Program-made: the position numbers and the translations under genes
Source: an uncultured Synechococcales cyanobacterium
GTDB lineage: Bacteria; Cyanobacteriota; Cyanobacteriia; Thermosynechococcales; Thermosynechococcaceae
Direction of reading: 5' to 3'
Length of the DNA stretch: 48,162 nucleotides
Assembly: GCA_902806435.1 (NCBI GenBank)
Contig: CADCWO010000154.1
Span: 1-48,162, forward strand
Shown: piece after piece, positions 456 through 46,834 of the stretch
Layout of the letters: the number at the start of each line of letters is the position of its first letter
How positions within the stretch are numbered: position 1 is the stretch's first letter
Notes under the pieces: generated by a model
The model's input: the letters and a program-made list of their open reading frames with translations, nothing else
Database searches by the model: none
Told to the model about the DNA's origin: nothing

Positions 456-2235
456 ATGACTTTATCCCCTCGGTTCAAACAACTTTTGTTCGGTAAGTCC
501 TTGCCGACAAGTGCACACGCTGAAGAACGATTAACTAACCCAGAAGCATTAGCGGTTCTTTCCTCTGATGCTTTGTCATCCGTTGCCTACGCCACAGAAG
601 AAATATTACTGGTACTCGTGGCAGCCGGGAGTTCTGCCCTCGGTTTGTCGCTTCCGATCGCTGCCGCAATTGTGCTCCTGCTAGCGGTTGTGATACTTTC
701 TTACCGCCAAACCATCAAGGCTTATCCGGATGGTGGTGGGGCTTATATAGTAGCGCGGGAGAATTTAGGGCTTTACCCAGGGCTAATTGCTGGCGCCTCC
801 TTGATGATTGACTATATCTTGACAGTAACCGTCAGTATCTCAGCGGGAACGGCTGCTCTGACCTCCGCCATTCCAGGGTTGCGACCCTTCACAGTAGAGC
901 TTTGCCTGATTTTTATCTTCTTGTTGATGCTGGCAAACCTGCGCGGGGTCAAGGAATAAGGCAGGCTGTTTATGATTCCAACCTATACTTTTGTGGTGAG
1001 TGTTTTTATCTTGATTGGCTTAGGGCTATTTCAACAAGTAACCGGGCAACTGCCGCAGAATCCTGCTACTGTTCCAGCCCAGGTGTCGTTGAGTACCTTT
1101 TTGATTTTGCGAGCCTTTGCCGCAGGGTGCACCGCTCTCACAGGAGTAGAAGCCATATCAGATGGCGTGCTGGCATTTAAGGAGCCGGAGTGGAAAAATG
1201 CCCGCCTGACCTTACTCTACATAGGGATAATTCTTGGAATAATGTTTCTAGGGATTAGCTACCTCACCAACATCTACCACATTACTCCAGAGGAAGGACA
1301 GACAGCCGTTTCCTTGCTGAGCCGCCAGATTGCTGGGGATGGTCCCTTCTACTACCTGATTCAGATCGCCACGCTATTGATCTTACTGTTGGCCGCGAAT
1401 ACCAGTTTTGCTGACTTCCCCCGATTATGTTACTTCCTGGCTCGTGATGGCTTTCTGCCGCGGCAGTTAGCGTTATTAGGCGATCGCCTCGTCTACTCCA
1501 ACGGAATTATTCTGCTGAGCGTTTTTGCTGCTTGCTTGGTCGTTATCTTTCAAGGGCAGGTCAACGCAATTATTCCCCTTTATGCTGTAGGCGTGTTCAC
1601 ATCCTTTACCTTGTCACAATCAGGGATGGTGGTTCACTGGTTCAAAGAGCGAACAGCTAATTGGCAGGCTAGCGCTCTGATGAACGGAATTGGCGCTATA
1701 GCTACGACAGGAGTTTTGGCCGTAATTGTGTCAACAAAGTTTTTCGGAGGAGCTTGGCTAGTAGTAGTAGCTGTTCCTCTGCTGGTAAGCCTGTTCATGG
1801 CTATTCGTCGCCACTATCAATCTGTAGCCGCTAAACTACACCCATCCAGCTGTAGTAGTGGTCGGTCAGCTAAACCGAGGAACCGTTGAGGCATTGGATT
1901 ATGCCCGTAGTATTGCGGATGAGATTGTGGCAGTGCTTGTCGATGTTGGTTCTACAGACCGAGACCAACTGCAACGAAAATGGCAACAACTAGAGTCAGA
2001 TATCCCTTTAGTGATCTTGGACTCCCCCTATCGCTCAGTAATTACTCCGCTGGTTGACTTTATCCATGATTATGAAGAGCGTCATCCTGGGGTTTTATCT
2101 ACGGTAGTTATCCCGGCATTCGTGACTCGTAATTGGTGGGAAGGTCTGTTGCACAACCAAACGGCCTTTTTCCTGAAGCGAGCCTTGCTAGCTAAGAAGA
2201 GCCGGGTGATCACAACTGTCCGGTATTACCTGTGA
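456..2235 (+). pseudogene. APC-superfamily permease (KimA-like), broken by a stop and a frameshift
   Basis: The three pieces read together as a roughly 593-residue membrane transporter. It has about 12 hydrophobic segments and a soluble C-terminal domain resembling universal stress proteins (from VVVVGQLNRGTVEAL onward). This is the architecture of cyanobacterial APC permeases related to the potassium importer KimA. The first break is an in-frame TAA at 957-959: the frame reads NLRGVKE, stop, GRLFMIP, where relatives usually carry Ser (NLRGVKESG), so one TCA to TAA change explains it. The second is one extra C in the CCC run at 1841-1843, which shifts the frame just before HPAVVVVGQL. Both sides of each lesion remain family-like, so decay is recent or the lesions are assembly errors. 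Substrate assignment is inferred from family resemblance only. Confidence 0.8.
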
Positions 2236-2262
2236 TTTTGAAGCGAAGCTACACTGCACTCC

Positions 2263-2895
2263 TCAATGCTCAAAAATAGCCTCATACCCTTGTAAGTCAA
2301 GCTCAGCTAGGGTGGGGAGACAGGTAAAGCATTGTTGAGCTAGTTCCCAGCGACCTTCGCGTTTGAGCATCCCCATTAGTTTCTCCTGAGCTGGCAGGAG
2401 ATAGCGCACATCATTAGCAGCGTAGCGTAGCTGTTCGGCTGACAGGTTAGCAGCATTGCCCCAGTCTGAGCTTTGAGCTCCTTTATCCAGCTCAACTTGT
2501 TCCAATTCCTTGATTAACTCTTTGAGCCCGTGGCGAGGGGTATAGGTCCGGGCTAGTTTGCTGGCAACTTTTGTGCAAAAGAGAGGCTTGACTAGAATAG
2601 CTAGGTGGTACTGAAGTGTGGCAATGTCAAAGCGAGCGAAATGAAATATTTTGAGGGTATTCTCGGCTTCTAGGAGGCGTTTTAGATTTGGGGCTTCGGT
2701 CTGGCCTTGAGCAACTCGCAGGACAGTAATTTGATTTTTGTGATCACACAGTTGGACTAAGCAAAGGCGATCGCGTTGCGGACGGAGCCCCATGGTTTCT
2801 GTATCAACGGCGATCCGCTCTGCCTGTAAGTACTGGTTCAAGATCGCCGCAGGCAGATCACCATCACAGATTTGAAAGTCATCAAATGTTGCCAC
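2263..2895 (-). CDS. Ribonuclease D-like 3'-5' exonuclease
   Basis: This 210-residue protein is a DEDDy-type exonuclease. Motif I is DTET (about residues 31-34), motif II lies in the FHFARFD stretch, and motif III is the YAANDVRYLL stretch with the paired Tyr and Asp. These acidic residues bind the two metal ions that hydrolyse RNA from the 3' end. It lacks the HRDC domains of E. coli RNase D, as is usual for the short cyanobacterial form, so a role in tRNA or small-RNA 3' trimming is inferred. It is convergent with the broken permease (27-base gap) and lies 72 bases downstream of the hydrolase gene on the same strand, so the two may be cotranscribed. Confidence 0.88.
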   Translation of the reverse strand: MATFDDFQICDGDLPAAILNQYLQAERIAVDTETMGLRPQRDRLCLVQLCDHKNQITVLRVAQGQTEAPNLKRLLEAENTLKIFHFARFDIATLQYHLAILVKPLFCTKVASKLARTYTPRHGLKELIKELEQVELDKGAQSSDWGNAANLSAEQLRYAANDVRYLLPAQEKLMGMLKREGRWELAQQCFTCLPTLAELDLQGYEAIFEH

Positions 2896-2967
2896 TACTC
2901 AACTCAGGCTGAAGGCCAGGATAGAAGATTACCTCTTGTGACTGTAGCGCAGGAAATCGCAAAAAAC

Positions 2968-3882
2968 TTAACTGGCTTGATTTTCCAGGACTGGCGATTG
3001 CTGTAAAAATGCCCTTACCTGCTGTAAGTAGGTAAGGGCATCCTCCAACATTGGAAAATGAGCTGTATCTGAAATCTCGACGTACTGGATATTGTTATTG
3101 AGCGCCGCCGCCCTTCGCCCCATTTCGGCTGGGATAATAATGTCGTACTCCCCAGCCACCAACAGCGTAGGGACAGAGATCTGAGCAAACTCTTGCGGCA
3201 TCACTTCCGCCGCCTTTTTACTGACAGCAGTCAGCATTGTTCCTAGTGCCGCTTCATAATCTGCCAGTAAAAAGTCTTCTAAAAAAGTCTTACTTAAAGC
3301 ATGGGGTAGAGGACGATGTACAAACCGTGCCATGAATAGCTGGTTTACGAAAGGAATTTTGGCCAGTAACCGGGGTCTAAACTTAACCACATAGCCACCA
3401 AATTGATGGAATTGGCTGAACGCCTTTTCGTCATATTCAAAAATACCGCTGCAGGTGAGAATAGCTCGCTCTACTCGCTCTGGGTAAAGATTCAGAAAAA
3501 AAGTGGCAATTGAAGCACCCGTAGAATGGGCATTTAAATACACTCGCTGCAAGTTCAAGGCATCGAGGAGTTCTTTTAGATCAATCGCGTAGGTCTCTAA
3601 CTCGTAGGCTAATGCTTCTGCGGTAGTTGGTTGCTCTTTGGGTAGTAATGAGCGCCCAAACCCTCTCATGTCGTAGAGTAAACAATCAAAGGTATCTGAA
3701 AGAGCTTTTGCCGTGCTTTCCCAATAGCGAGCTGAGCCACCCCAGCCATGTAAGAAAACCATTACTGGTTTGGTTGCCTCATGGGTATCAGAGGAAGGAG
3801 GCTTAAAGTCCGGATCTTGATCACGGTCGTGCGTAACCCATTCGTAGTAGTGATCAACCCCCCGAATCTTGGTATGACGCAT
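2968..3882 (-). CDS. Alpha/beta hydrolase
   Basis: This 304-residue protein is an alpha/beta-hydrolase fold enzyme. The oxyanion-hole motif is HGWGG (45-49). The nucleophile elbow is AHSTGAS with Ser120, the acid is Asp247 in GEYDIIIP, and the base is His275 in DTAHFP. A cap region lies between about 150 and 225. The elbow starts with Ala rather than the consensus Gly. The substrate cannot be told from the sequence; related proteins act on esters, epoxides, haloalkanes or C-C bonds. It lies 105 bases downstream of clpX and 72 bases upstream of the RNase D gene, all on the minus strand. The ATG at 3882 is the natural start. Confidence 0.85.
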   Translation of the reverse strand: MRHTKIRGVDHYYEWVTHDRDQDPDFKPPSSDTHEATKPVMVFLHGWGGSARYWESTAKALSDTFDCLLYDMRGFGRSLLPKEQPTTAEALAYELETYAIDLKELLDALNLQRVYLNAHSTGASIATFFLNLYPERVERAILTCSGIFEYDEKAFSQFHQFGGYVVKFRPRLLAKIPFVNQLFMARFVHRPLPHALSKTFLEDFLLADYEAALGTMLTAVSKKAAEVMPQEFAQISVPTLLVAGEYDIIIPAEMGRRAAALNNNIQYVEISDTAHFPMLEDALTYLQQVRAFLQQSPVLENQAS

Positions 3883-3987
3883 GGACTTAATGAACTTGGC
3901 TAGTAATGAACAATTGTGCTCTTTAAAGGTGCCTAGAGCAATTCAGCAATTCAACGAGAAATGCAACACAACAAACTTTGCTCATCT

Positions 3988-5331
3988 CTAAGCAGACTCA
4001 GGTTTAGGAATAGAAGAAGGATGCAACAGTAGCTCAGCGGTAGAGCGTTTCTCTACCATTTCCTGGGTGATCGCACAGCGAGTTAAATCTTTACGAGAGG
4101 GTAGTTCATACATCACATCTAGCATGATCTCTTCAACAATTGTCCGTAGGGCACGTGCTCCAGTTTTGCGCCGGTGGGCTTGTTGGGCGATCGCCCGTAC
4201 AGCGTCGGGATTAAATTCCAGTTGCACATTGTCCATCTTTAGCAGCTTTTGGTACTGCTTAACTAAAGCATTCCGAGGTTCAGTCAAAATGGCTGTTAGG
4301 GTCTCCTCGTCCAAGGGGTCCACAACCGCCAAGACAGGAATTCGACCGATAAACTCTGGAATCATACCAAATTTCACGAGATCTTCCGGCTGTAGGTGTC
4401 TAAGGATATCCGCTGCCCGCTTTTCTTTCGCTTGCGGTTCACCGGCCTGCACAAACCCCATTGCCTTTTTGCCAATCCGCTGCTCTATCGTTTTCTCTAG
4501 GCCGACAAACGCCCCCCCACAGATGAACAGAATGTCTTTGGTATCGACTTGAATACAATCTTGATAAGGATGTTTGCGCCCTCCTTGAGGAGGAACATTA
4601 GCAATTGTTCCCTCCAGCATTTTGAGTAATGCCTGCTGTACACCTTCACCAGAAACATCACGAGTGATAGAAGGGTTTTCACTCTTGCGCGCGATTTTGT
4701 CAATTTCATCAATGTAGATAATGCCCCTTTGAGCTTCTTCTACATCTAGATCGGCAACTTGTAACAGGCGAAGTAGAATGTTTTCAACATCCTCTCCCAC
4801 ATAGCCCGCCTCCGTGAGGGTAGTCGCATCGGCGACCGCGAACGGGACATCCAAAAGTTGAGCTAATGTTTGGGCTAAGAGTGTCTTGCCGCAACCCGTA
4901 GGGCCCACCAGGAGAATATTTGACTTCTGCAGCTCTACGGCATCATCGGCGCTTAGTTTGCCATTGGTCTTGTCTTCAACCAAGCTCAAACGCTTGTAGT
5001 GGTTATAGACTGCTACAGAAAGAACCTTCTTTGCTTCATCTTGACCAATCACATGGTCATCTAAGTACTTTTTGATTTCCCGTGGTTTGGGGATCTGGCT
5101 CAGGTTGAGATTGCTAGCGCGAGCACGACGCTTTTCCGGTGCTGGCTCCCGACGATTGGATGGTGGAGAAACCGCCGCGCCTGCTTCAAACAGTTCCTCA
5201 TCCAAAATTTCATTGCATAAGTCAACGCACTCGTCACAGATGTAGACTCCCGGGCCCGCAATCAATTTACGAACTTGTTCTTGGGATTTACCACAAAAGG
5301 AACACTTTAGATGGGAGTCGTACTTAGACAT
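3988..5331 (-). CDS. clpX: ATP-dependent Clp protease ATP-binding subunit ClpX
   Basis: ClpX is the AAA+ unfoldase that feeds tagged proteins into ClpP. The 447-residue protein has an N-terminal four-cysteine zinc domain (CSFCGK and CDECVDLC), a Walker A GPTGCGKT, the GYVG pore loop, Walker B IYIDEID, and the IGR-type ClpP-docking region (EFIGRIPV). The C-terminal small AAA domain is complete. A residue linker of about 40 positions after the zinc domain is rich in Arg, Pro and Ala. It starts 9 bases after clpP ends, so the two are one operon. The 3' end (around 4029-4047) by chance looks like a tRNA D-arm on the plus strand, but it is coding. Confidence 0.97.
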
Positions 5332-5340
5332 AAGTGCCTC

Positions 5341-6057
5341 TTAGTTGACTGCGCTAACGGGTTCCGAACGATTAGGAAGGTTTTCTCGCAACAGCACTTG
5401 GTCAATCAAACCGTATTTTTGAGCATCTTCTGCAGACATAAAGAAGTCTCGTTCTGTATCTGCTTCAACGCGCTCAAAAGGTTGGCCTGTGTGATGGGCA
5501 AGTAACTCATTCAATCTACGCTTGTAGTAAAGAATTTCTTTGGCTTGGATTTCAATATCGACTGCTTGACCTTGGGCACCACCCAAAGGCTGGTGAATCA
5601 TGATTCTGGAGTTGGGCAGCGCCATGCGCTTACCAGCGGTACCGGCAGCCAGCAGAAAAGCACCCATGCTTGCCGCTAAACCAAAGCAAATTGTACAGAC
5701 GTCGGGGCGAATATGCTGAATGGTGTCATAAATAGCCATGCCAGCTGTTACGGAGCCACCAGGGGAGTTGATATAGAGATAAATATCCTGCTCTGGATCT
5801 TCAGCATCTAAGAACAGCAACTGGGCAACAATCGTATCGGCAACCGCATCATTAATCCCACGCTGGTCTGAAGCACTGCCACCTAAAAAAACAATCCGTT
5901 CCCGTAATAATCGTGAATAGATATCAAAAGCACGTTCACCACGTCCTGATTGCTCTACGACTACCGGCAAAATATTGCGAGGGCTAGGAGCAGACTCAGC
6001 GTAAATCGCTTGCGGACTGGCGCTAGTAAGAGGCTGGTGGAATTGAGACACAAGCAT
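5341..6057 (-). CDS. clpP: ATP-dependent Clp protease proteolytic subunit ClpP
   Basis: ClpP is the serine peptidase that forms the tetradecameric chamber of the Clp protease. The catalytic triad is visible as Ser130 (GLAASMGA), His155 (IMIHQPLGG) and Asp204 (TERDFFMS), with the same spacing as E. coli Ser98/His123/Asp172. At 238 residues it carries about 30 extra N-terminal residues relative to mature E. coli ClpP; a propeptide or a downstream start is possible. Cyanobacteria encode several ClpP/ClpR paralogues; this one is linked to clpX and tig, and its triad is intact, so it is ClpP, not ClpR. Confidence 0.96.
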
Positions 6058-22120: not shown

Positions 22121-22555
22121 ATGGCTGAGAACCGACGAAGTAATCACACGCTCACTCGCCTGACAGTGCATATTGTCTGGGTGACAAAATATCGCTATCA
22201 CGTCCTCAAAGGAGAAGTTCAAAAGCGGTGTCGAGAACTGTTGATCCAAATCTGTGATGCTGAGGATATTCGCATTCTCAAAGGTTCTGTCAGCAAAGAT
22301 CACGTTCATATGCTCATTGAGTATCCTCCGTCCCAGTCTATTAGTGAGATTGTTCGCCGCCTCAAAGGTCGTACTTCAAGGCGGCTGCAACAGGAATATC
22401 CAGAGCTGCAGAAACGATACTGGGGCAAGCATTTCTGGGCAATTGGCTATGGAGCCTGGAGTACCGGAAGTGTCAGCGAGCAGATGGTGGAGGAGTATCT
22501 GGAGCATCATCGCCATCCGTCTAACGCAGACAATGACAACTTTCTGCTGGAGTAG
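22121..22555 (+). CDS. tnpA: IS200/IS605-family transposase TnpA
   Basis: This 144-residue single-tyrosine (Y1) HUH transposase is complete. The metal-binding HUH pair is His61-Val-His63 (DHVHMLIEYP) and the nucleophile is Tyr126 in EEYLEHH; spacing matches IS608 TnpA (His64, His66, Tyr127). It starts at ATG 22121 and ends TAG at 22553-22555. All catalytic residues are present and the frame is intact, so the element may still be mobile or recently arrived. The C-terminal tail (residues 131-144) is polar and extends past the catalytic helix. Confidence 0.93.
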   Translation: MAENRRSNHTLTRLTVHIVWVTKYRYHVLKGEVQKRCRELLIQICDAEDIRILKGSVSKDHVHMLIEYPPSQSISEIVRRLKGRTSRRLQQEYPELQKRYWGKHFWAIGYGAWSTGSVSEQMVEEYLEHHRHPSNADNDNFLLE

Positions 22556-22557
22556 AA

Positions 22558-22570
22558 GGACTTTCAGTCC
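22558..22570 (+). repeat. Extra small hairpin just after tnpA stop
   Basis: GGACT, TTC, AGTCC form a 5-bp stem two bases after the transposase stop codon, ten bases before the right-end hairpin. It shares the CTTTCAG core with the left-end hairpin. It may be part of the transposase-binding right end or an mRNA 3' structure. Confidence 0.55.
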
Positions 22571-22579
22571 TGCTCAAAC

Positions 22580-22600
22580 CTCTGCACTGAAAGTGCAGAG
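22580..22600 (+). repeat. Right-end hairpin of the IS200-like element
   Basis: A 9-bp stem CTCTGCACT/AGTGCAGAG with a GAA loop, 25 bases after the transposase stop. It is longer than the left-end hairpin but shares its GCAC/GTGC core. It fits the right-end recognition structure of IS200/IS605 elements. Confidence 0.7.
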
Positions 22601-22730
22601 TGGTTTAGTTTGCTTGATGCTTCTAGCTACTTAACGCTGAGCGGAGTTTTTTCGGATAAGTATCAGCCTTTCATAGAAGGGTTTAAGCATACTGCCAGTC
22701 AACACTTCTAGAGCTCAAGACAAAACCACT

Positions 22731-37437: not shown

Positions 37438-38712
37438 TCATGCCAATCCCGGTTTTGAAATCACAACACCATAGGCAGTTGCCGATAGGTAACGTTGCGC
37501 GGCAGTTTGCAGGCTGGCACAAGTTACGGCCTGGATTGCGGTGGGATAGTTGAGAGCTGGAGCCAGGTCTGATACTGTCGATTGGTAGTAGCCGTAGAGA
37601 CTGGCACGATTAGCTGGGGCTTCATTGTTAAATACAAAACCGTTAGCGGTCCGAGTCTGAATCTGTGCTAATTCTTCGGCTGTGACTAGCTCATTTTGCA
37701 TTCTCGCAATATGTTGGGCGATCGCTGACTCCACAACAGATAAATTTTCAACGGGCAATTGGGCCGATATATAAAACACACCTTGGACCACTTGCGTCAT
37801 ATTGCTGACCGAAATACTCGTCACCCAACCTTTGTCCTCGCGCAGGTCTTGAACCAAGCGTGAGGTCCGTCCCTGACCTAAAACCTTGGCTAAGACATCT
37901 AAGGCATAGGTTTGCTCGAGCTGCTCAAGACCCGGAACGCGCCAGAGCATGAGTAGACGGGCTTGCTGCAACCGCTCATCTACAATTTCTTGCCGCACAA
38001 CCTCGCAAAAAGGCGGTTCTGGCTGTCGGCGTGATGGCGACGCAGCCTGGACCTGTTTAGCGTCGCTGAAACCCGCCTCAATTGTTGTAATTAATTCTGC
38101 TACAGGTAAATTCCCGACTGCAACCGCGGTTAGAGACTGGGGCTGGTACCAGTGCTGGTGAAACTGCCGCATTTGCTGGGGGGTAAGTTGCTCAATCACA
38201 CTGGTAGGACCAAGAACGGGGCGGCGATAGGGTAACTCCGCGAAGGCAACTTCCATCGCTTGCTGAAATATCCTGCGCCGGGGGTTATCTTCCGCGCGGC
38301 GAATTTCTTCTAAAATGACTAGTCGTTCGCGCTCAAAGGCTGCATCGGGGATACTGGCGTTGAGCACAACATCCATTTGAGCGATCGCCACTGCCGCGAA
38401 ATCTTGAGGCGCAACCGTTGCGTAGTAAAAGGTGTAATCTTGACTAGTGGCCGCGTTCGTGGCTCCCCCTCGCTGTTCAACCAGCCGCTCAAACTCGCCA
38501 CTCTGCAACTGAGCTGTTCCCTTAAACACCATGTGCTCTAGAAAATGAGCCATGCCATTAATTGCATCAGCTTCCCTTGCCGAACCAGCCCCTACCCAGA
38601 GACTAAAATTAACGACATCAATCGGTACCTGCTCAGCAATGATCGTTAGCCCATTGGATAACTGATGAACAGTTGGGGTGGGCCCAGAAGACTTAGTGGG
38701 AGCTTGAACCAT
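37438..38712 (-). CDS. M16 family zinc peptidase
   Basis: This 424-residue metalloprotease of the M16 (pitrilysin / processing peptidase) family carries the inverted zinc motif HFLEH (His56, Glu59, His60) and the third ligand Glu136 76 residues later in LVILEE. The C-terminal half keeps the LYGYYQ region with the conserved Tyr. Members cut signal or transit-type peptides or small peptides, and several work as a pair of homologous subunits; only one is encoded here. It has no visible signal peptide. Its ATG is at 38712. Confidence 0.92.
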   Translation of the reverse strand: MVQAPTKSSGPTPTVHQLSNGLTIIAEQVPIDVVNFSLWVGAGSAREADAINGMAHFLEHMVFKGTAQLQSGEFERLVEQRGGATNAATSQDYTFYYATVAPQDFAAVAIAQMDVVLNASIPDAAFERERLVILEEIRRAEDNPRRRIFQQAMEVAFAELPYRRPVLGPTSVIEQLTPQQMRQFHQHWYQPQSLTAVAVGNLPVAELITTIEAGFSDAKQVQAASPSRRQPEPPFCEVVRQEIVDERLQQARLLMLWRVPGLEQLEQTYALDVLAKVLGQGRTSRLVQDLREDKGWVTSISVSNMTQVVQGVFYISAQLPVENLSVVESAIAQHIARMQNELVTAEELAQIQTRTANGFVFNNEAPANRASLYGYYQSTVSDLAPALNYPTAIQAVTCASLQTAAQRYLSATAYGVVISKPGLA

Positions 38713-38795: not shown

Positions 38796-41465
38796 CTATT
38801 GCTTGTCAAGAACCTCGTATAAAGTGTTCAATAAATCCTTGGCTGTGTAAGGCTTAGCCAAAAATGCCTGAATGCTAAGGGATTGCGCTAGTTGATTGTT
38901 GGTCATCAACCCACTGGCAGCAATAATCTTCACCTGGGGGTTCATTTGACGCAAGGTGCGAATAGTTGTGGTACCGTCCATTGCCGGCATCATCATGTCC
39001 ACCAGTACCACCGCAATTTCAGCCTGATGCTGAGCATACAGGGCGATCGCCTCAATGCCATCGCTAGCAGTGAGAACCCTGTGATTGTATATCTCCAGCG
39101 TTGTTTTGGTAACTTCCCGAATCGGAGCTTCATCATCCACAACCAAAATCAACTCCCCGCCCCCTAAAGAGATTTGCATATCTGGCTCTTTCTGTGTTTC
39201 AACTCCTTCAGATGCGGGTAGGTAGACCTTAAATTGAGCGCCCCTCCCAAACTCACTATAAACGTTGATAAAACCGCCGTGGCTTTTGATGATGCCAATC
39301 ACGGTTGAAAGCCCTAGCCCTGTTCCTTTGCCCACCTCTTTGGTGGTGAAGAACGGCTCAAAGATTTTATCAATTACCTCAGGGGGTATACCAGCTCCAG
39401 TATCCGCAACGCTAATTGCAATGTGAGGGCCAACTTGGGCATCCAGATGCATTTGAGCATAGTGGGCATCTATGATGAGGTTTTCAGCACAGAAACTCAG
39501 CCTACCTCCTTCTGGCATGGCGTCACGAGCATTGACCGCCAGATTCATCAGCACCTGATGCAGGTGAGTGGCATCTCCAAAGACAGGCCATAGGTCTGGT
39601 GCTAGGTCTGTAGAGACTTCAATGGTTTTAGGAAAGGTCTGTTTGACGATCTGCTTCACTTCCCCAATCAGATGCCTGACTTGAATAACTGTGCGCTTGC
39701 CTTCCACACCCCGGGCAAAGGACAGCACTTGCTTGACTAATGCCGTACCCCGCCTAGCACTTGCCTCCAGGATCTCAAGGATCTTCTGACTTTGCTCATC
39801 AACGTGAGGAAGTTTTAACGGCAACAGTTGAGCGGCCGCCAGAATGGGAGTCAAGATATTGTTGAGGTCGTGGGCAATGCCACTGGCAAGGGTACCAAGG
39901 CTCTCTAATCGTTGGGTGCGTAGGTACTGCGCTTCAAGTTGCTTCTTCTGCGTAATGTCAGTATCAACGGTGAGGACTGATTTTGGTTGTCCAGCGTCAT
40001 CGCGTACCAGTGCCCACCGGCTTGTAACAATGATATTTTTGCCGTGTTTAGTCAGGTTAGGTAACTCACCTTGCCACTCACCCTGCTCAATAACGCTCCT
40101 CAACGCGGTTTCAAGTTGTGCCGAATCCTGGTATAGCAGCTGGTGAGCATACTCACCGCAAGCCTCCGCCGCCCGCCAACCGTACAGATGCTCAGCGCCT
40201 TTGTTCCAAAACAAAATTTGGTCCTCTAGATCTCGAACAAAAATAGCATCTGTCGCTACATCAAGCAGGGCAGCTTGTTCCCGCAACTTTTGTTTCGTTT
40301 GCTTGCGATCAGTGATATCGGTGCAAACCGCAATCAGACCAATCTGGTTGCCGAACTCATCCACAATGCAGTCAGCCCGCAATAGCGTAGATACAATGCC
40401 ACCGTGCTTGCTCTTCAGTTCGACCTCACCATTCCAGGCACGGCCATTTCGAATTGCTTCGAACGCCTGCTTGGCAATCTCAGCCTCGGTAAATATTGCT
40501 GACAGACCACCCGCCGCATTCAGCTCGTCAACTTTATAGCTGTATAACTCAATGAACGCCGGATTGTGGTAAATTGAGCGCCCAGCCATGTCAGTCATGC
40601 CAATCGCATCGCTCGTGCTCTCGACGGCCTTACTAATCCGTAGCAGCGTTTCTCTGGTGCGCTCTCGCAAAACTGCTTCAGTTTGCTTTCGTTCAGTAAT
40701 GTCACGCCAGGCAACAACAAAACCATCGCCCAACTTAGCAGCGCGAACGTCAAGCGCACTGGTCAAAGACTGCTTGTCAGCTCCATAAATTAATACTTCT
40801 TTGAAAAAGGGTTCACCCGTTTCAACCACTTGGCAGTATGCCTCAAATAGTCCCGTTTGCTGGTGTCCGGGTAGTAACTCAAACAGATGCTTGCCCACCT
40901 GTTCGGCTTGGCTGAGGCGATTGTTCGCGCAAGCCGCCGCGTTGACATACTCAATCGTGAAGTCGACAATCCGGTTTGATGCGTCACGAACGCAGGTGTA
41001 GATGCCAAAGCAGTCAAGTAGGTTCTCTACGGAAGTCCGAAATCGTTCTTCGCCCTGCTCAAGTAAACGTTGGAGACGATCGCGTTCAACCACATTGTGA
41101 ATGGCCAGTCGCAGACTTTCAGAAGTTGTATTTCCTTTGATCAAATAGTCCTGGGCGCCACCTTTCATCGCGGCAACTGCGATCGCCTCATTTCCTTGAC
41201 CGGTGAGCATAACTACCGGTAGGTGCGTTCTACCGCTTTGGGTTTGCAACTCGTGTAAGAATTCCAGCCCATCAATATCGGGAAGCAAAAAGTCTAGCAG
41301 AATGACATCCGGCTTAACCAGTTGGCACAAGTCCAGCCCGCTTTCCCCGTACTCTTCCTCCAGAATGGTGTACGTGTAGTTGGCATCCTGAAGCAAGAAG
41401 CGGCGGTAGGTTTCCCGGTCTTCCGCAGAGTCATCAATGATCAGAACCGTTCGCTGTGGGCTCAT
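38796..41465 (-). CDS. Hybrid sensor histidine kinase, REC-PAS-PAS-PAS-HK-REC
   Basis: This 889-residue protein has a receiver at each end. REC1 (about 5-125) has phosphoacceptor Asp58. Three PAS-like sensory modules follow (about 140-260, 275-390, 395-510). The kinase core has His532 in the H-box GIAHDLNN, the N-box [10 protein letters not shown] (641-650), the DTG of ADTGAG (688-690) and the GKGTGLGLS box. REC2 (about 773-889) has Asp823. The kinase core is of the type with the HDLNN H-box and no DNA-binding domain. The ATG at 41465 overlaps the stop of the Rcp gene in TGATG; a GTG one codon upstream is less likely. It is the last gene of the cphB-rcpB-hybrid-kinase operon. Confidence 0.92.
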
Positions 41466-41923
41466 CACGGTCTCCTCAACGTATTGGGAAGAATGACGGC
41501 TTCAAACCAGTAGTCAGCCAGGATTTGAATCGTTCTCATCAATTTATCAATATTGATTGGCTTAACAATGTACCCATTAACGCCATACCGGTAACAGACC
41601 TCAACATCTTTAGGGTTAGAGGAGGTTGTGAACACGACAACCGGAATAACCTTGAGATCGTTGTCTTGCTTGATCTGCTCAAGCACCTCCCGTCCATCTG
41701 TGCCTGGCAAGTTGAGGTCGAGCAAAATAATAGCGGGTCGCGGTATGTTGGGCAGCCCATCGTAATTACCAGCCCGGCGGAGAAAGTCTAAAGCATCATC
41801 ACCATCGGTACAGCGATAAATTGGGTTAGCAATGGATGCCTTCTGCATCATGCGTCCCAAAGCTTCAAAATCTTCATCACTGTCTTCAATCACCAGTAAG
41901 GGCTGAGTTGGGTCACCTGCCAT
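41465..41923 (-). CDS. rcpB: Rcp-type single-domain response regulator (phytochrome partner)
   Basis: This 152-residue stand-alone receiver has the acidic pocket EDSDED (13-18), phosphoacceptor Asp69 in [11 protein letters not shown], and the Lys of VKPIN. It resembles Rcp1/RcpB, the cognate acceptors of cyanobacterial phytochromes, including the insert in the early loop and the C-terminal extension that forms dimers. It has no output domain. It starts directly after the stop of the phytochrome gene (TAAATG), and its own stop overlaps the next kinase start, so all three genes are probably coupled. The symbol follows the CphB/RcpB pair of Calothrix by analogy. Confidence 0.88.
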
Positions 41924-44218
41924 TTACTCACCTCGGCGCAATGTGAAATAAAAAGTGCTGCCTGTACCGTAGGTAGACTCAACCCAGAGCTTCCCGCCAT
42001 GTCGCTCCACAATTTTTTTGGCGATAGTTAGGCCAGCACCCGTTCCGCCCCCATACTTGTTAGCAGTATGTAGACGCTTGAAGATCCGAAAAATGGTATC
42101 CAGGTGTTTCTCGCGAATCCCAATACCGTTGTCGCGGATATAGAAAATGAGCAACGGCTCGCCTGCCTCTTCTTCAGCCTGAGGATGCTCTGGTGGGGCC
42201 GCGTCTACGAGCCAGCCGATTTCTACTTGCTTGTCTGTCTTGTCGTTGTATTTAATCGCATTACTAATTAAATTACTGAATACCTCACTGACTTGCACCG
42301 GATCACAGCGCACGATTGGTAAGGGCTGTGGAATGCGAATATCTACTGCTGCCTCTTTCCAGCTGATCTGCAAGACATCGACAACATTCTGAACTAATTC
42401 GTTGAGGTTAGTCCGCTGCATCGTCAGTTCCACCCGACCTAGGCGAGAAAAATGCAAAAGCGAATCAATTAAGTCTTCCATCCGCTGGGTGAGGCGAACC
42501 AAAGTTTGCAGTTTGGAGTTGCCCTCTTCGTTGAGCACCTCAGCATAATCTTCAATCAGGAAACTAGAGTAGTTGTGGATTCCCCGCAGCGGCTCTTTCA
42601 AGTCATGGGAAGCAATATAGGCAAAGGCATCCAATTCACTGTTGCTTCGCTCTAGTTCGATATTGATTCTCGCTAGTTCATCTGCCTTGCGTAGCACAAT
42701 GCCAATAACTGCGCTTTTGAGCTCCAAGGCTGCCTCAATTTCGCACGGTTTCCAAGCTAAGGACTTGCAACGCACGGTTTCTTGCCACAGCTCAAAGGAT
42801 TTACGGGGCGAAAGATGCAAACTGCCATCCGGGGCAATCTCCACGGGTTTTTCAGGATTGCCACCCCAGTTCACCGTTTGGATCACTTCTGGACGGAACC
42901 ACAAAACGTAATTGTGTTGGGTTTTAGAAATAGCCAGGGCCAACAACCCACTGGCAACCGCTTTGAACTTCTCGGCTGGCGGGTAAATTTTAGGCAAAGC
43001 ATCAGTTGAAAATACATCCTGCTGAATTTTGGTGCCTAGCCATTCAATCAAAGCTTTGATCTCAGCTTCTGGCGGCGTTTTGCCAATCAGTACTAAGTCA
43101 TCACCGGAACTCAGGGCCACGCCTTGGGCACTGGCTAAGTTGAGCAGGTTGGATTCGGACTTAGCTAAACCCTCAATAAAATCTTCGGACTGCGGAATGG
43201 ATGCGACAAATTGTGACTGGATTAACTTCAATTTCATCCGGTAGTCTAGGTCTTCATTGTCTTGTTTCGCCGCCAGTTCTAGGGACATCACTTGCCCCAA
43301 AAACTCGCAAGCAGTCCGCACCTCGTAACTAAGATACTTCGCTGACTGGTGATGACAGGCAATCAAGCCCCAGAGCTGTTTATCTTTCACCAAGGAAATA
43401 GACATTGAAGCTGCTACCCCCATATTGGTGAGGTATTCAATGTGAATCGGGGAAACACTCCGCAGCACGGAAAAGCTTAAGTCAAGGGGACGATCGGTAA
43501 CTGGATTGTTGAGCGGTATTAGTTCTACGGGCTGGTAGCTAACATGGGGAATTAACCGCAGCCGGTTGAGGGTATAGAGTTGGCTTGCTTGCTTAGGAAT
43601 ATCAGAAGCAGGGTAGTGCAGACCTAGGTAGGGGCTTGGGCCTTCTAACTTATCTTCCGCAATTACTGCGCCTGCCCCTTCAGGATTGAATCGATAGAGC
43701 ATTACCCGATCAAAGCCAGTCAGGTTTCGCACTTGCTGGACAATGACTTCACTCAACGCCTGGACGCTAGAAGCGTTTTGCATCTTGGCCGTTGGACTTT
43801 TGACCAGATGGTAAAAGCTAAAGAAGTTAGCTTCTTGCTCAAGTTGTGTCGGCTCTAACTCTAAAATGAGTACCCCATCTGAGCGATGAATAATTCCATC
43901 AAACGCCAAATTTTGCTCTGTAGTTTCAATGGTGAGTTTTAAAGGGTTGACGCTTTCAAAGTCTTTCAATAAACATTTTTCTAAATATTCAATTTGCTCG
44001 GAGCCTAGCAAGTCTTTTAAGGGACGGTTAAGCAACTGCTGAGGGTGCAGCTTCAGAAATTGGAAGGTGTTATTGCTGAGCTGGATAATTTCTAGCTGGG
44101 GTTCCTTGAGGACTAAAAGTAGCCCGTGGGGCTGAATTAAACCCGGAATATGAATTGGCTCGCGATCGCAATTCGTGAGATCAACCGGGGATGGGTTTAC
44201 AGCACTGCGCTGGTTCAT
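41924..44218 (-). CDS. cphB: Bacteriophytochrome (CphB-type) sensor histidine kinase
   Basis: This is a red/far-red photoreceptor kinase of 764 residues with the order PAS-GAF-PHY-HisKA-HATPase. Cys17 in NCDREPIHIPG is the N-terminal bilin-binding residue of biliverdin phytochromes. The GAF domain keeps PASDIP (Asp206) and SPIHIEYL, where Cph1 has its chromophore Cys; that position is Ile258, so binding is through Cys17. The PHY tongue has WGG (451-453) and PRKSF (471-475). The kinase has His538 (ASHDLKEPL), NLISNAIKYND (649-659), DNGIG and GTGAGL. ATG at 44218 is chosen over an upstream TTG at 44266. The next two genes are its likely phosphorelay partners. Confidence 0.95.
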   Translation of the reverse strand: MNQRSAVNPSPVDLTNCDREPIHIPGLIQPHGLLLVLKEPQLEIIQLSNNTFQFLKLHPQQLLNRPLKDLLGSEQIEYLEKCLLKDFESVNPLKLTIETTEQNLAFDGIIHRSDGVLILELEPTQLEQEANFFSFYHLVKSPTAKMQNASSVQALSEVIVQQVRNLTGFDRVMLYRFNPEGAGAVIAEDKLEGPSPYLGLHYPASDIPKQASQLYTLNRLRLIPHVSYQPVELIPLNNPVTDRPLDLSFSVLRSVSPIHIEYLTNMGVAASMSISLVKDKQLWGLIACHHQSAKYLSYEVRTACEFLGQVMSLELAAKQDNEDLDYRMKLKLIQSQFVASIPQSEDFIEGLAKSESNLLNLASAQGVALSSGDDLVLIGKTPPEAEIKALIEWLGTKIQQDVFSTDALPKIYPPAEKFKAVASGLLALAISKTQHNYVLWFRPEVIQTVNWGGNPEKPVEIAPDGSLHLSPRKSFELWQETVRCKSLAWKPCEIEAALELKSAVIGIVLRKADELARINIELERSNSELDAFAYIASHDLKEPLRGIHNYSSFLIEDYAEVLNEEGNSKLQTLVRLTQRMEDLIDSLLHFSRLGRVELTMQRTNLNELVQNVVDVLQISWKEAAVDIRIPQPLPIVRCDPVQVSEVFSNLISNAIKYNDKTDKQVEIGWLVDAAPPEHPQAEEEAGEPLLIFYIRDNGIGIREKHLDTIFRIFKRLHTANKYGGGTGAGLTIAKKIVERHGGKLWVESTYGTGSTFYFTLRRGE

Positions 44219-44591
44219 GCGGCTACTTCCGTTTATAGAAAAGCTGTAAGTTAACTTACGGTACAAGAATACCTAAGATGACTGAAAAGCTCTAAAAAGA
44301 GTCCTGAGCATTAGGGATGTTGACTCGGTTGCTTAGCAATCAGCTTCTTACTAGCTTATTCTTTTTGGGATCTATCTTGCCGTCAGAAGCGATCAAGCAA
44401 GATATTCACTCATCCTATGTTCTCAACAATCGTCATTACCTTAATTAATTATTAAGGCTCGCTTCAAGTAACATTCAAAATTAGTGGATGTAGGGGTTAT
44501 AAATTTAAAGTGCTGCTGAAGATTTTGCGAGGCAACGATCGCGACTCTACGCTAGATATCAAGACTAACCAGTACTGCCTATGCGATCGCA

Positions 44592-45848: not shown

Positions 45849-45864
45849 TCATGATCGATCATGA
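45849..45864. repeat. 16-base palindrome across the Rpn gene start codon
   Basis: TCATGATCGATCATGA is a perfect palindrome that includes the ATG (45851-45853) and codons 2-4. Part of it is set by the family N-terminus MIDHD, but the flanking bases extend it by two positions on each side. It could act as an operator or a translational control structure. Confidence 0.5.
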
Positions 45865-46834
45865 CCGTCTATTCAAAGAATTGCTCTCCACGTTCTTCTT
45901 AGAGTTTGTGGAGCTGTTTTTGCCAGATGTACTGAGTTATTTAGAGCGAGACTCTCTGGTTTTTCTAGACAAGGAGTTATTTACCGATGTCACCTCTGGT
46001 GAACGGCATGAAGCTGACTTGGTAGTCAAAGCCCAGTTTAGAGGGCAAGCCTCGTTTTTTCTGATTCATGTGGAAAGCCAGGCCCAACATCAAGCCGCTT
46101 TTAGCCAGCGCATGTTTCGCTATTTTGCCCGTTTGTATAACAAATACAGCTTACCTGTATATCCGGTGGTCATCTTCTCTTACGATTCACCTCAACGGGA
46201 AGAGCCACGTTCTCATTGGGTAGAATTTCCCAATAAAGTTGTTTTGCAATTTAACTATGAAGTCATCCAGCTTAATCGGCTCAGCTGGCGAGATTTTGTT
46301 CGTCAGAGCAATCCTGTAGCAAGCGCACTCATGGCTAAGATGAACGTAGCCCCGGAGGAACGCCCCAGGGTCAAGCTGGAATGTCTAAGACTGTTAGCGA
46401 CGCTGCGGCTCGACCCAGCTCGGATGCAGTTAATTTCAGGGTTTGTCGATACCTATCTGCGCTTGAGCACAGAAGAAGAACAGCGATTCAGAGTAGAGCT
46501 TGATAGGATTGAACCAGAGGAGCAGGAAGGCGTGATGCAGATTGTGACAAGTTGGTTAGAGGAAGGGCTGCAACAAGGGCTGCAACAAGGGCTGCAACAA
46601 GGGCTGCAACAAGGGCTGCAACAAGGGCTGCAACAAGGGCTGCAACAAGGGCTGCGGGAAGGAGAACTGGCACTCATCTTGCGGCTATTGACTCGTCAAG
46701 TTGGTACTGTTAGTTCTGAATTAGAAGTAAAAATTCGTAAGTTATCTCTATCTCAGTTAGAGGACTTAGGCGAGGCACTACTAGATTTTTCAGATCCAGC
46801 AGAGTTAGTAGCCTGGTTAGAAAATTGCCGCTAA
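45851..46834 (+). CDS. Rpn family recombination-promoting nuclease-like protein with DUF4351
   Basis: This 327-residue protein belongs to the Rpn/YhgA-like PD-(D/E)XK family. It opens MIDHDRLFKELL and carries the active-site set Asp56 (HEADLVV), Glu75 and Gln77 (HVESQ). Rpn proteins of E. coli promote recombination independently of RecA. A seven-fold GLQQ array (residues 239-266) links this to a C-terminal DUF4351 domain (ELALILRLLTRQVG onward). The start lies in a 16-base palindrome. The gene is between two direct repeats (45655 and 46919), which fits a history of local recombination; whether the gene causes this is inference. Confidence 0.88.
   Translation: MIDHDRLFKELLSTFFLEFVELFLPDVLSYLERDSLVFLDKELFTDVTSGERHEADLVVKAQFRGQASFFLIHVESQAQHQAAFSQRMFRYFARLYNKYSLPVYPVVIFSYDSPQREEPRSHWVEFPNKVVLQFNYEVIQLNRLSWRDFVRQSNPVASALMAKMNVAPEERPRVKLECLRLLATLRLDPARMQLISGFVDTYLRLSTEEEQRFRVELDRIEPEEQEGVMQIVTSWLEEGLQQGLQQGLQQGLQQGLQQGLQQGLQQGLREGELALILRLLTRQVGTVSSELEVKIRKLSLSQLEDLGEALLDFSDPAELVAWLENCR
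46565..46648 (+). repeat. 12-bp tandem repeat inside the Rpn gene
   Basis: Seven identical copies of GGGCTGCAACAA encode (GLQQ)7, ending in GLRE. The lack of any sequence difference among the copies points to recent expansion or contraction. Being a multiple of three, changes in copy number keep the frame. All three reverse frames stay open through the array, which creates false reverse-strand reading frames. Confidence 0.95.

Follow-up and report, generated by a model that had tools for sequence, protein, structure and literature searches.

A phytochrome operon of a Synechococcales cyanobacterium probably addresses an RcpB-type regulator and a two-receiver hybrid kinase through a common docking helix

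Here, we describe a three-gene light-sensing operon located on a stretch of 48,162 nucleotides (contig CADCWO010000154.1, positions 1 to 48,162 of the forward strand; hereafter the window) from an uncultured Synechococcales cyanobacterium, whose genome assembly (GCA_902806435.1) comprises 4.79 Mb in 278 contigs. The operon encodes a phytochrome sensor kinase, the small response regulator RcpB and a hybrid kinase with one receiver domain at each end (REC1 and REC2). We propose, with a probability of about 75%, that these genes form a branched red/far-red cassette, in which two parallel transfers from the phytochrome charge RcpB and REC1, the latter modulating the hybrid kinase. The phytochrome would autophosphorylate His538 according to its light state and pass the phosphate to two receivers made from one message, namely RcpB (Asp69) and REC1 (Asp58), both of which would contact its DHp domain via one type of docking helix (alpha1). 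Phosphorylated REC1 would raise or lower autophosphorylation by the hybrid kinase, which would receive other cues through its PAS domains; integration of light with other signals by this protein is therefore plausible. Phosphate would then pass within the hybrid kinase from His532 to Asp823 of REC2, and a distant Hpt domain or regulator would carry the signal onward. REC1 would thus serve as a conserved adaptor with modules swapped behind it between species, coupled here to an output module of CckA-like type, which apparently also serves a second trio of the host genome, one without a phytochrome. The features of the operon are as follows (labels such as L032, C34 and G133 are our own handles).

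41924..44218, minus strand: gene of a phytochrome sensor kinase, BphP/CphB type (764 amino acids, ATG start; PAS-GAF-PHY, HisKA with His538, HATPase_c)
41465..41923, minus strand: rcpB, gene of an RcpB-type single-domain response regulator (152 amino acids, Asp69; 14-residue alpha1 docking segment)
38796..41465, minus strand: gene of the two-receiver hybrid kinase (889 amino acids; REC1-PAS1-PAS2-PAS3-HisKA with His532-HATPase_c-REC2)
41061..41465, minus strand: REC1 of the hybrid kinase (residues 1-135, Asp58), a PPHK-type N-terminal receiver with the alpha1 also found in RcpB
40674..41456, minus strand: front part of the hybrid kinase, REC1-PAS1 (residues 4-264), related in sequence to the third genes at loci L032 and L033
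38799..40328, minus strand: back part of the hybrid kinase, PAS3-CckA-like kinase-REC2 (residues 380-889), with identity to C34, C133 and L099
38799..39182, minus strand: REC2 of the hybrid kinase (about residues 762-889, Asp823), with an alpha1 unlike that of RcpB
41921..41926, minus strand: stop-start joint of the phytochrome gene and rcpB, TAA then ATG at once
41463..41467, minus strand: overlapping joint of rcpB and the hybrid kinase gene, TGATG

The first-pass annotation of this DNA had described a light-sensing operon of three translationally coupled genes; its genes, coordinates, joints (TAAATG and TGATG) and phosphorylation sites were all verified, and its reading as a light operon is supported. 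At the first joint (gagTAAATG) the ATG directly follows the TAA, and at the second (ccgTGATGa) one base is common to stop and start. Shine-Dalgarno-like runs lie 5' of all three starts: GGAAG in front of the phytochrome gene (for which an alternative longer TTG start is possible at 44266), GAGGTGAG in front of rcpB within the phytochrome gene, and GAGGAG in front of the hybrid kinase gene within rcpB. Inspection of the residues confirmed His538 and Cys17 in the phytochrome, Asp69 in RcpB, and Asp58, His532 and Asp823 in the hybrid kinase. According to Pfam, the first protein has the architecture PAS_2-GAF-PHY-HisKA-HATPase_c (PF08446, PF01590, PF00360 with 207.7 bits, PF00512 and PF02518), RcpB consists of Response_reg alone without an output domain, and the third protein comprises Response_reg, three PAS stretches, HisKA, HATPase_c and a second Response_reg, without a GAF domain. 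None of the DNA-binding families matched any of the three proteins (Pfam, E 0.001), in agreement with the earlier statement that the operon holds no such output.

A new result concerns helix alpha1, the main receiver surface read by histidine kinases, which we compared as the 14 columns after the acidic pair. Of the 83 receivers found in the host genome, none matches RcpB in alpha1 better than REC1 does, and vice versa; outside this helix they rank only 11th and 23rd of 82. The alpha1 of REC2 ranks 68 of 82 against RcpB and 18th against REC1. We extended the comparison to pairs of an Rcp-like regulator and an adjacent following gene with an N-terminal receiver (91 distinct of 103 after removal of identical pairs, 79 of the 91 with a kinase match just upstream), of which 90 entered the least strict test and 22 were kept as representatives, one per 60% identity; L105, probably spurious and with unmatched alpha1 segments, and L170, a broken locus, stayed in the pair counts. 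For the 22 representatives, alpha1 scored on average 24.2 for pairs from one operon and 7.7 for pairs across operons (z 9.4; p 0.0002, the lowest value attainable with 5000 permutations), compared with z 1.66 and p 0.059 for the rest of the domain and z ≤ 1.65 for the printed alignment windows beginning past alpha1. C-terminal receivers of the same proteins gave no signal (15 pairs, z 0.08, p 0.49). Permutation inside four classes left alpha1 at z 6.1 (p 0.0002) and the rest at z 1.55 (p 0.064); since the alpha1 signal survives this procedure, the match is more than a class effect. Simple tandem duplication, in turn, would not restrict the likeness to one helix.

Several results qualify the alpha1 match. 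When all 90 pairs, a redundant set, are considered, similarity within operons extends to the remainder of the domain (z 4.5, p 0.0002), also upon permutation inside the four classes (z 2.1, p 0.026). Here, alpha1 reached z 16.6, far above the rest of the domain, and z 10.3 inside the classes, and the likeness of the remaining domain fades in non-redundant sets. Taken alone, nine plasmid trios showed no significant alpha1 match (p 0.13), nor did six of them (with one Rhizobiaceae representative; p 0.26), probably because most have one alpha1 type; when the main set was enlarged by plasmid trios to 25 representatives, alpha1 stood at z 9.2 (p 0.00005) and the rest at p 0.07.

The common helix also bears on a different role for RcpB, which might act mainly as a phosphate sink, a role known from chemotaxis systems, or as a docking competitor; with both receivers drawing on the phytochrome, it would set the threshold and speed of REC1 charging. 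We regard this as rather unlikely to be its principal function, albeit compatible with the branched cassette. A common alpha1 predicts competition for one surface, the missing output domain of RcpB fits a sink, and at locus L123 a phytochrome gene directly precedes a REC1 gene without a separate Rcp above thresholds, so that Rcp may be dispensable to that arrangement. However, the dimeric, phosphorylation-stabilised form of Rcp1 mentioned in excerpts of PMC3899027 suggests a signalling role.

The docking surface matched by the alpha1 of REC1 is most likely that of the first kinase of the operon (HK1), rather than that of the third gene's kinase (HK3). To relate receivers to kinases, receiver distances were correlated with the DHp distances of the kinases and corrected for the ATPase domain (partial r; 2000 permutations, floor p 0.0005), with the gappy rows K29, H37, H72 and H88 dropped. 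In 17 operons, both REC1 alpha1 (partial r 0.65, p 0.0005, the floor) and Rcp alpha1 (0.42, p 0.0005) followed the DHp of HK1, and the rest of REC1 gave 0.19 (p 0.12). REC1 alpha1 showed no link to the DHp of HK3 (0.09, p 0.31, n=9). In larger sets its correlation with HK1 was 0.54 (n=19) and 0.62 (n=52), above the corresponding HK3 values. The alpha1 match persists, moreover, in third genes without a recognizable kinase: the third gene of the host-genome trio C257 ends in GGDEF-EAL, with no kinase by Pfam, and its receiver alpha1 still resembles that of its Rcp; the match is likewise seen at L141, L129 and L159, and more weakly at L231, whose third genes have no kinase by BLAST.

Some of these numbers speak for a less exclusive coupling. 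The rest of Rcp also follows HK1, if more weakly (0.27, p 0.03, n=17), and at n=34 the rests of Rcp (0.22) and REC1 (0.31) do so as well, both with p < 0.01. The HK3 comparison comprises nine operons, and larger, redundant sets reveal a weak link of REC1 alpha1 to HK3 (0.22, p 0.04, n=19; 0.37, p 0.0005, n=52). The distances of the two kinases are themselves correlated in the phytochrome group (r 0.79, n=44) and in the redundant mixed set (r 0.60, n=52), as opposed to the diverse sets (r 0.11 in 19 and -0.27 in nine operons); the evidence for an exchanged third kinase therefore lies in the diverse sets and in the comparison of domains given below.

The same measure speaks to a linear phosphorelay from His538 via Asp69 of RcpB to His532 (or an Hpt domain) and on to Asp823 of REC2, with REC1 as a regulatory side domain. 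Such a relay would account for an RcpB without an output domain and for the retention of Asp823, and the host genome does contain five Hpt domains, though none in the operon. We nevertheless consider it improbable: in the nine operons Rcp alpha1 does not follow the DHp of HK3 (partial r -0.09, p 0.69) but that of HK1 (0.38, p 0.04), and the Rcp-REC1 match holds where the third gene shows no kinase. A weak link between Rcp alpha1 and HK3 appears in the larger sets (0.19, p 0.04, 19 operons; 0.29, p 0.0005, 52 operons).

The branched cassette further draws on the conservation of gene order. A search for RcpB across 386 genomes of the phylum gave matches in 40 (E ≤ 1e-35), and 52 RcpB matches outside the host genome were taken with up to 8 kb on each side. 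A phytochrome gene lies 5' of rcpB on the same strand at 50 of these 52 loci (once at 1.8 kb); the remaining two are L063, which is cut by a contig end, and L065, which has none. REC1 genes were accepted above 40% identity and 75 bits with a start within 3 kb, the largest gap being about 1 kb. A gene beginning with a REC1-like receiver follows rcpB, at up to about 1 kb, at 38 of the 52 loci, and two further loci carry it upstream of the phytochrome gene. With the gap measured to the residue aligned with the first residue of the window's hybrid kinase, rcpB and the REC1 gene are at most 5 nt apart (overlaps counted) at 18 of the 39 loci with a downstream REC1, the window among them. The three-gene order, whose conservation had been named as a check by the first-pass annotation, is thus conserved, and it recurs so widely that the operon arrangement is beyond chance. 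Identity to the window's REC1 ranges from 41 to 73% at the other loci, and the proteins that carry it vary from about 510 to 1810 amino acids, with PAS domains, GAF domains or both and with extra receivers in some. Pfam, run on 29 of 40 third-gene products, found at least two receivers in 11/29 and a GAF domain in 17/29. The earlier view of the third gene as a non-standard addition to the pair is not supported by these counts and by the plasmid loci described below.

REC1 and RcpB also co-occur across genomes: REC1 was found in 39 of the 40 RcpB genomes versus 17 of the 346 others (cut-offs E 1e-30 and 1e-35; Fisher p 7e-39, uncorrected for shared ancestry), the single RcpB genome without any REC1 match being G127. 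In three genomes (G300, G352 and G376), REC1 does not follow the rcpB or does not follow one of two copies of it, but a high-scoring REC1 gene lies elsewhere. Two observations count against a strict coupling, namely the 12/52 RcpB loci without a REC1 gene in the fetched stretch and the REC1-type receivers in the 17/346 genomes without RcpB, because of which REC1 may have other donors. That the hybrid kinase is a chance neighbour whose REC1 receives phosphate from some other kinase or from His532 of the same protein is the least credible explanation, since REC1-type receivers do occur in many genes (at least 118 matches in 56/386 genomes, several in genomes without RcpB; a lower bound, as ten candidates were scored per genome), but gene order, phyletic coupling, alpha1 sharing, the stronger covariation with HK1 and the recurring gene overlap all argue against it.

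Genomes G133 and G078 carry at least eight REC1-type receivers each, mostly away from RcpB, and these numbers hint that one phytochrome might serve many REC1 proteins. At locus L045 (G042:C1:5938020-5938469), the RcpB match contains an in-frame TGA and the third gene is retained.

The make-up of the hybrid kinase resembles that of a fusion. Residues 4-264 (REC1-PAS1) share 66-67% identity with the third genes of the phytochrome operons L032 and L033, whose kinases are only about 28% alike to that of the window. Residues 380-889, on the other hand, share about 62% identity with two host-genome proteins, the C34 third gene product and the C133 kinase, and 60% with the L099 third gene product, which comes from a phytochrome operon of an Aphanocapsa metagenome-assembled genome and joins REC1 directly to the CckA-like back end. 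The window's third protein is therefore probably a fusion of a REC1-PAS1 front and a CckA-like PAS-kinase-REC2 back. In NCBIfam this back end is nearest to CckA (NF046020, 371 bits, residues 494-887), below the equivalog cut-off of 1000 bits. The alpha1 of REC2 is nearly the same as in the back-end receivers of C34, C133 and L099. This points to REC2 as a partner of the kinase in its own chain, from whose His532 it probably accepts phosphate in cis. These results divide the branch outlined by the first-pass annotation, in which phosphate would reach the receiver at either end of the hybrid kinase. The path from the phytochrome to RcpB and the N-terminal receiver gains support from the common alpha1 and from a rhizobial precedent (see below), whereas REC2, by its alpha1 rank against RcpB and its match to the C-terminal receivers of CckA-like hybrids, would not take part. 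From the similar alpha1 of their C-terminal receivers, the light trio and the C34 trio may have a common downstream partner. The host genome further encodes two proteins of about 800 amino acids (L172 on C70 and L175 on C87), each containing three receivers plus an Hpt domain and lying next to a kinase and a small receiver; both are candidate acceptors of REC2-type signals.

Trios of kinase, Rcp and receiver-bearing protein extend beyond phytochromes and beyond cyanobacteria. Within the host genome, C34 holds a parallel set of a kinase, an Rcp and a REC-GAF-PAS-kinase-REC protein. In C257 (L164, 2740-8693), a CHASE4-HAMP-GAF-PAS kinase precedes an Rcp-like regulator and a REC-PAS-PAS-GGDEF-EAL protein, a possible route from a membrane sensor to cyclic di-GMP. 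C121 has an Rcp followed by a REC-kinase, with no upstream kinase found, and C103 contains trio fragments. For named relatives, the best 80 of 499 confirmed stretches were kept, 52 of the 80 listed and 25 looked up further. These loci include trios in which the first kinase has a phytochrome-like core and no match to the phytochrome sensor: a Rhodopirellula-labelled record (kinase 59%, Rcp 57%, REC1 59% identity), a Nitrospirales metagenome-assembled genome (56%, 52% and 50%) and Nitrosospira (40%, 34% and 48%).

A search for plasmid phytochromes yielded 67 records with a match over at least 80% of the query, of which 12 were opened, and nine of these 12 loci show a phytochrome, an Rcp and a receiver-bearing gene. 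They belong to the alphaproteobacteria Sinorhizobium, Allorhizobium, Azospirillum, Methylobacterium, Ensifer, Indioceanicola and Rhizobium and, outside this class, to Deinococcus and Hymenobacter. The Cupriavidus locus has a phytochrome and an Rcp without a third gene, and at the Caballeronia and Leisingera loci neither an Rcp nor a receiver-bearing partner was found near the phytochrome. The Azospirillum and Ensifer third genes are annotated as HWE kinases, and the third gene at the Methylobacterium locus L307 carries receivers at both ends flanking a CckA-like kinase. On plasmid p2 of Sinorhizobium sp. B11 (L301, 566-7641), the trio adjoins kaiB-family and kaiC genes. In a Bryobacterales metagenome-assembled genome (L123, about 1646-5893), the REC1 kinase gene lies directly 3' of the phytochrome gene, with no separate Rcp above thresholds nearby.

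The phytochrome itself, whose PHY domain is the sole one found in the host genome, shows a biliverdin-type pattern, with an N-terminal Cys17 and Ile258 where the GAF cysteine would be; it therefore probably binds biliverdin via Cys17. Among 50 phytochromes from related operons (L032-L083), 34 have the N-terminal cysteine only and 16 the GAF-motif cysteine, one of them with both types. L032, one of the two closest REC1 relatives, falls into the GAF-cysteine class. With two chromophore-site classes within one operon type, the trio has been retained across a change of chromophore attachment.

As for the surroundings of the operon, a scan for promoters gave 8 matches versus 6.7 in shuffles, and one for terminators 3 versus 6.5. 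As the matches are no more frequent than in shuffles, we claim neither a promoter nor an operon end. A gene for an M16-peptidase-like protein (37438-38712) lies on the same strand, 83 bases 3' of the hybrid kinase gene, and may share its transcript with the operon. Elsewhere in the window, positions 45851-46834 encode an Rpn-nuclease-like protein with a QQGL repeat run (weak TIGR01784 match, under the cut-off), and positions 22121-22634 hold overlapping open reading frames of 144 and 126 amino acids, the first of which is perhaps frame-shifted near its end and resembles what we take to be an IS200-type transposase.

Going further, we tentatively suggest, at somewhat less than even odds, that trios of a histidine kinase, an Rcp and a REC-X protein form a general plug-and-socket family, with a private alpha1 docking code and with sensors and outputs freely swapped on both sides. 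In the host genome, one CckA-like kinase-REC2 cartridge would then have been joined both to the light trio and to one or more non-light trios (C34 among them), and their inputs, though separate and insulated, would meet in a single downstream pathway. The operon also yields a wiring rule, by which the docking helix of the small regulator would predict the other receiver served by the same kinase. If this rule is right, sequence could reveal the targets of many phytochrome-like kinases that are as yet unassigned, and REC1 would represent a ready adaptor to place other kinases under red-light control. Our results also suggest that in many cyanobacteria phytochromes act on a second kinase that can be switched, and not on Rcp alone, which bears on the question of how Rcp proteins function.

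Compared with known systems, the first two genes correspond to the CphB/RcpB pair: the best PDB match of the small regulator is Calothrix RcpB (1k66, E 1e-59), and the window's phytochrome likewise has an N-terminal cysteine, no GAF cysteine and an adjacent RcpB-type regulator. To our knowledge, the textbook description is that of a pair, of which a third gene is no part. In the light systems RcaE-RcaF-RcaC and RfpA-RfpC-RfpB, the protein with receivers at both ends is a DNA-binding output protein, whereas the operon of the window contains no DNA-binding domain by Pfam. With the CckA family, the hybrid kinase has the kinase core and the C-terminal receiver in common (PDB 5idj), at a score well under the equivalog cut-off. 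The closest solved relative of REC1 is the receiver of PPHK (PDB 6oap, 149 bits; next PDB match 58), a kinase that reportedly works with an upstream photoreceptor. The receivers nearest to that of PPHK in our set (L087 85%, L049 83%, L056 81%) belong to genes that follow a phytochrome and an Rcp. In both PPHK and the window's protein, an N-terminal receiver of one subfamily is followed by sensor and kinase; according to excerpts of the literature on PPHK, a dual-sensor histidine kinase of Leptolyngbya JSC-1 (PMC8584932, PMC8199190), its second sensor is a bilin-binding GAF domain, in contrast to the PAS domains found here.

The proposed wiring from an upstream kinase to an N-terminal receiver is also met in Leptospira, where LvrA phosphorylates the receiver of LvrB and raises its autokinase activity, and neither protein has a DNA-binding output. 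LvrA, however, is of the hybrid type itself, and the cited portions describe neither a phytochrome nor a separate Rcp (PMC5863495). For CdgK/CdgS of Anabaena, a kinase is similarly proposed, in the excerpt at hand, to act on a protein with an N-terminal receiver (PMC9927289). The rhizobial BphP1-AgR-ExsG system is alike in the order of phytochrome, single-domain Rcp-like regulator and kinase with N-terminal receiver. As far as the available extracts go, Rhizobium NT-26 has a cluster of BphP1, AgR, ExsG and ExsF, in which the BphP1 kinase phosphorylates both AgR and the ExsG receiver (Asp62) in assays, the ExsG kinase is inhibited by phosphorylated REC, and ExsG hands phosphate to ExsF; the authors term the cascade intrinsically branched (PMC3899027). 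According to the extract used, one operon of Agrobacterium comprises agp1, AgR and ExsG (PMC1552090). Dual phosphorylation is shown in the former system, whereas our support is indirect and comes from sequence. ExsG, as portrayed there, is an HWE kinase with an N-terminal receiver and a kinase core, in contrast to the HisKA (PF00512)/CckA-like core, three PAS domains and second receiver of the window's protein, which, being HisKA and not HWE, is therefore not an ExsG. No precedent for the CckA-like two-receiver version or for the alpha1 rule was found in the openly licensed literature searched. Altogether, the branched topology is already known from rhizobia, while its CckA-like two-receiver version and the alpha1 rule appear to be new.

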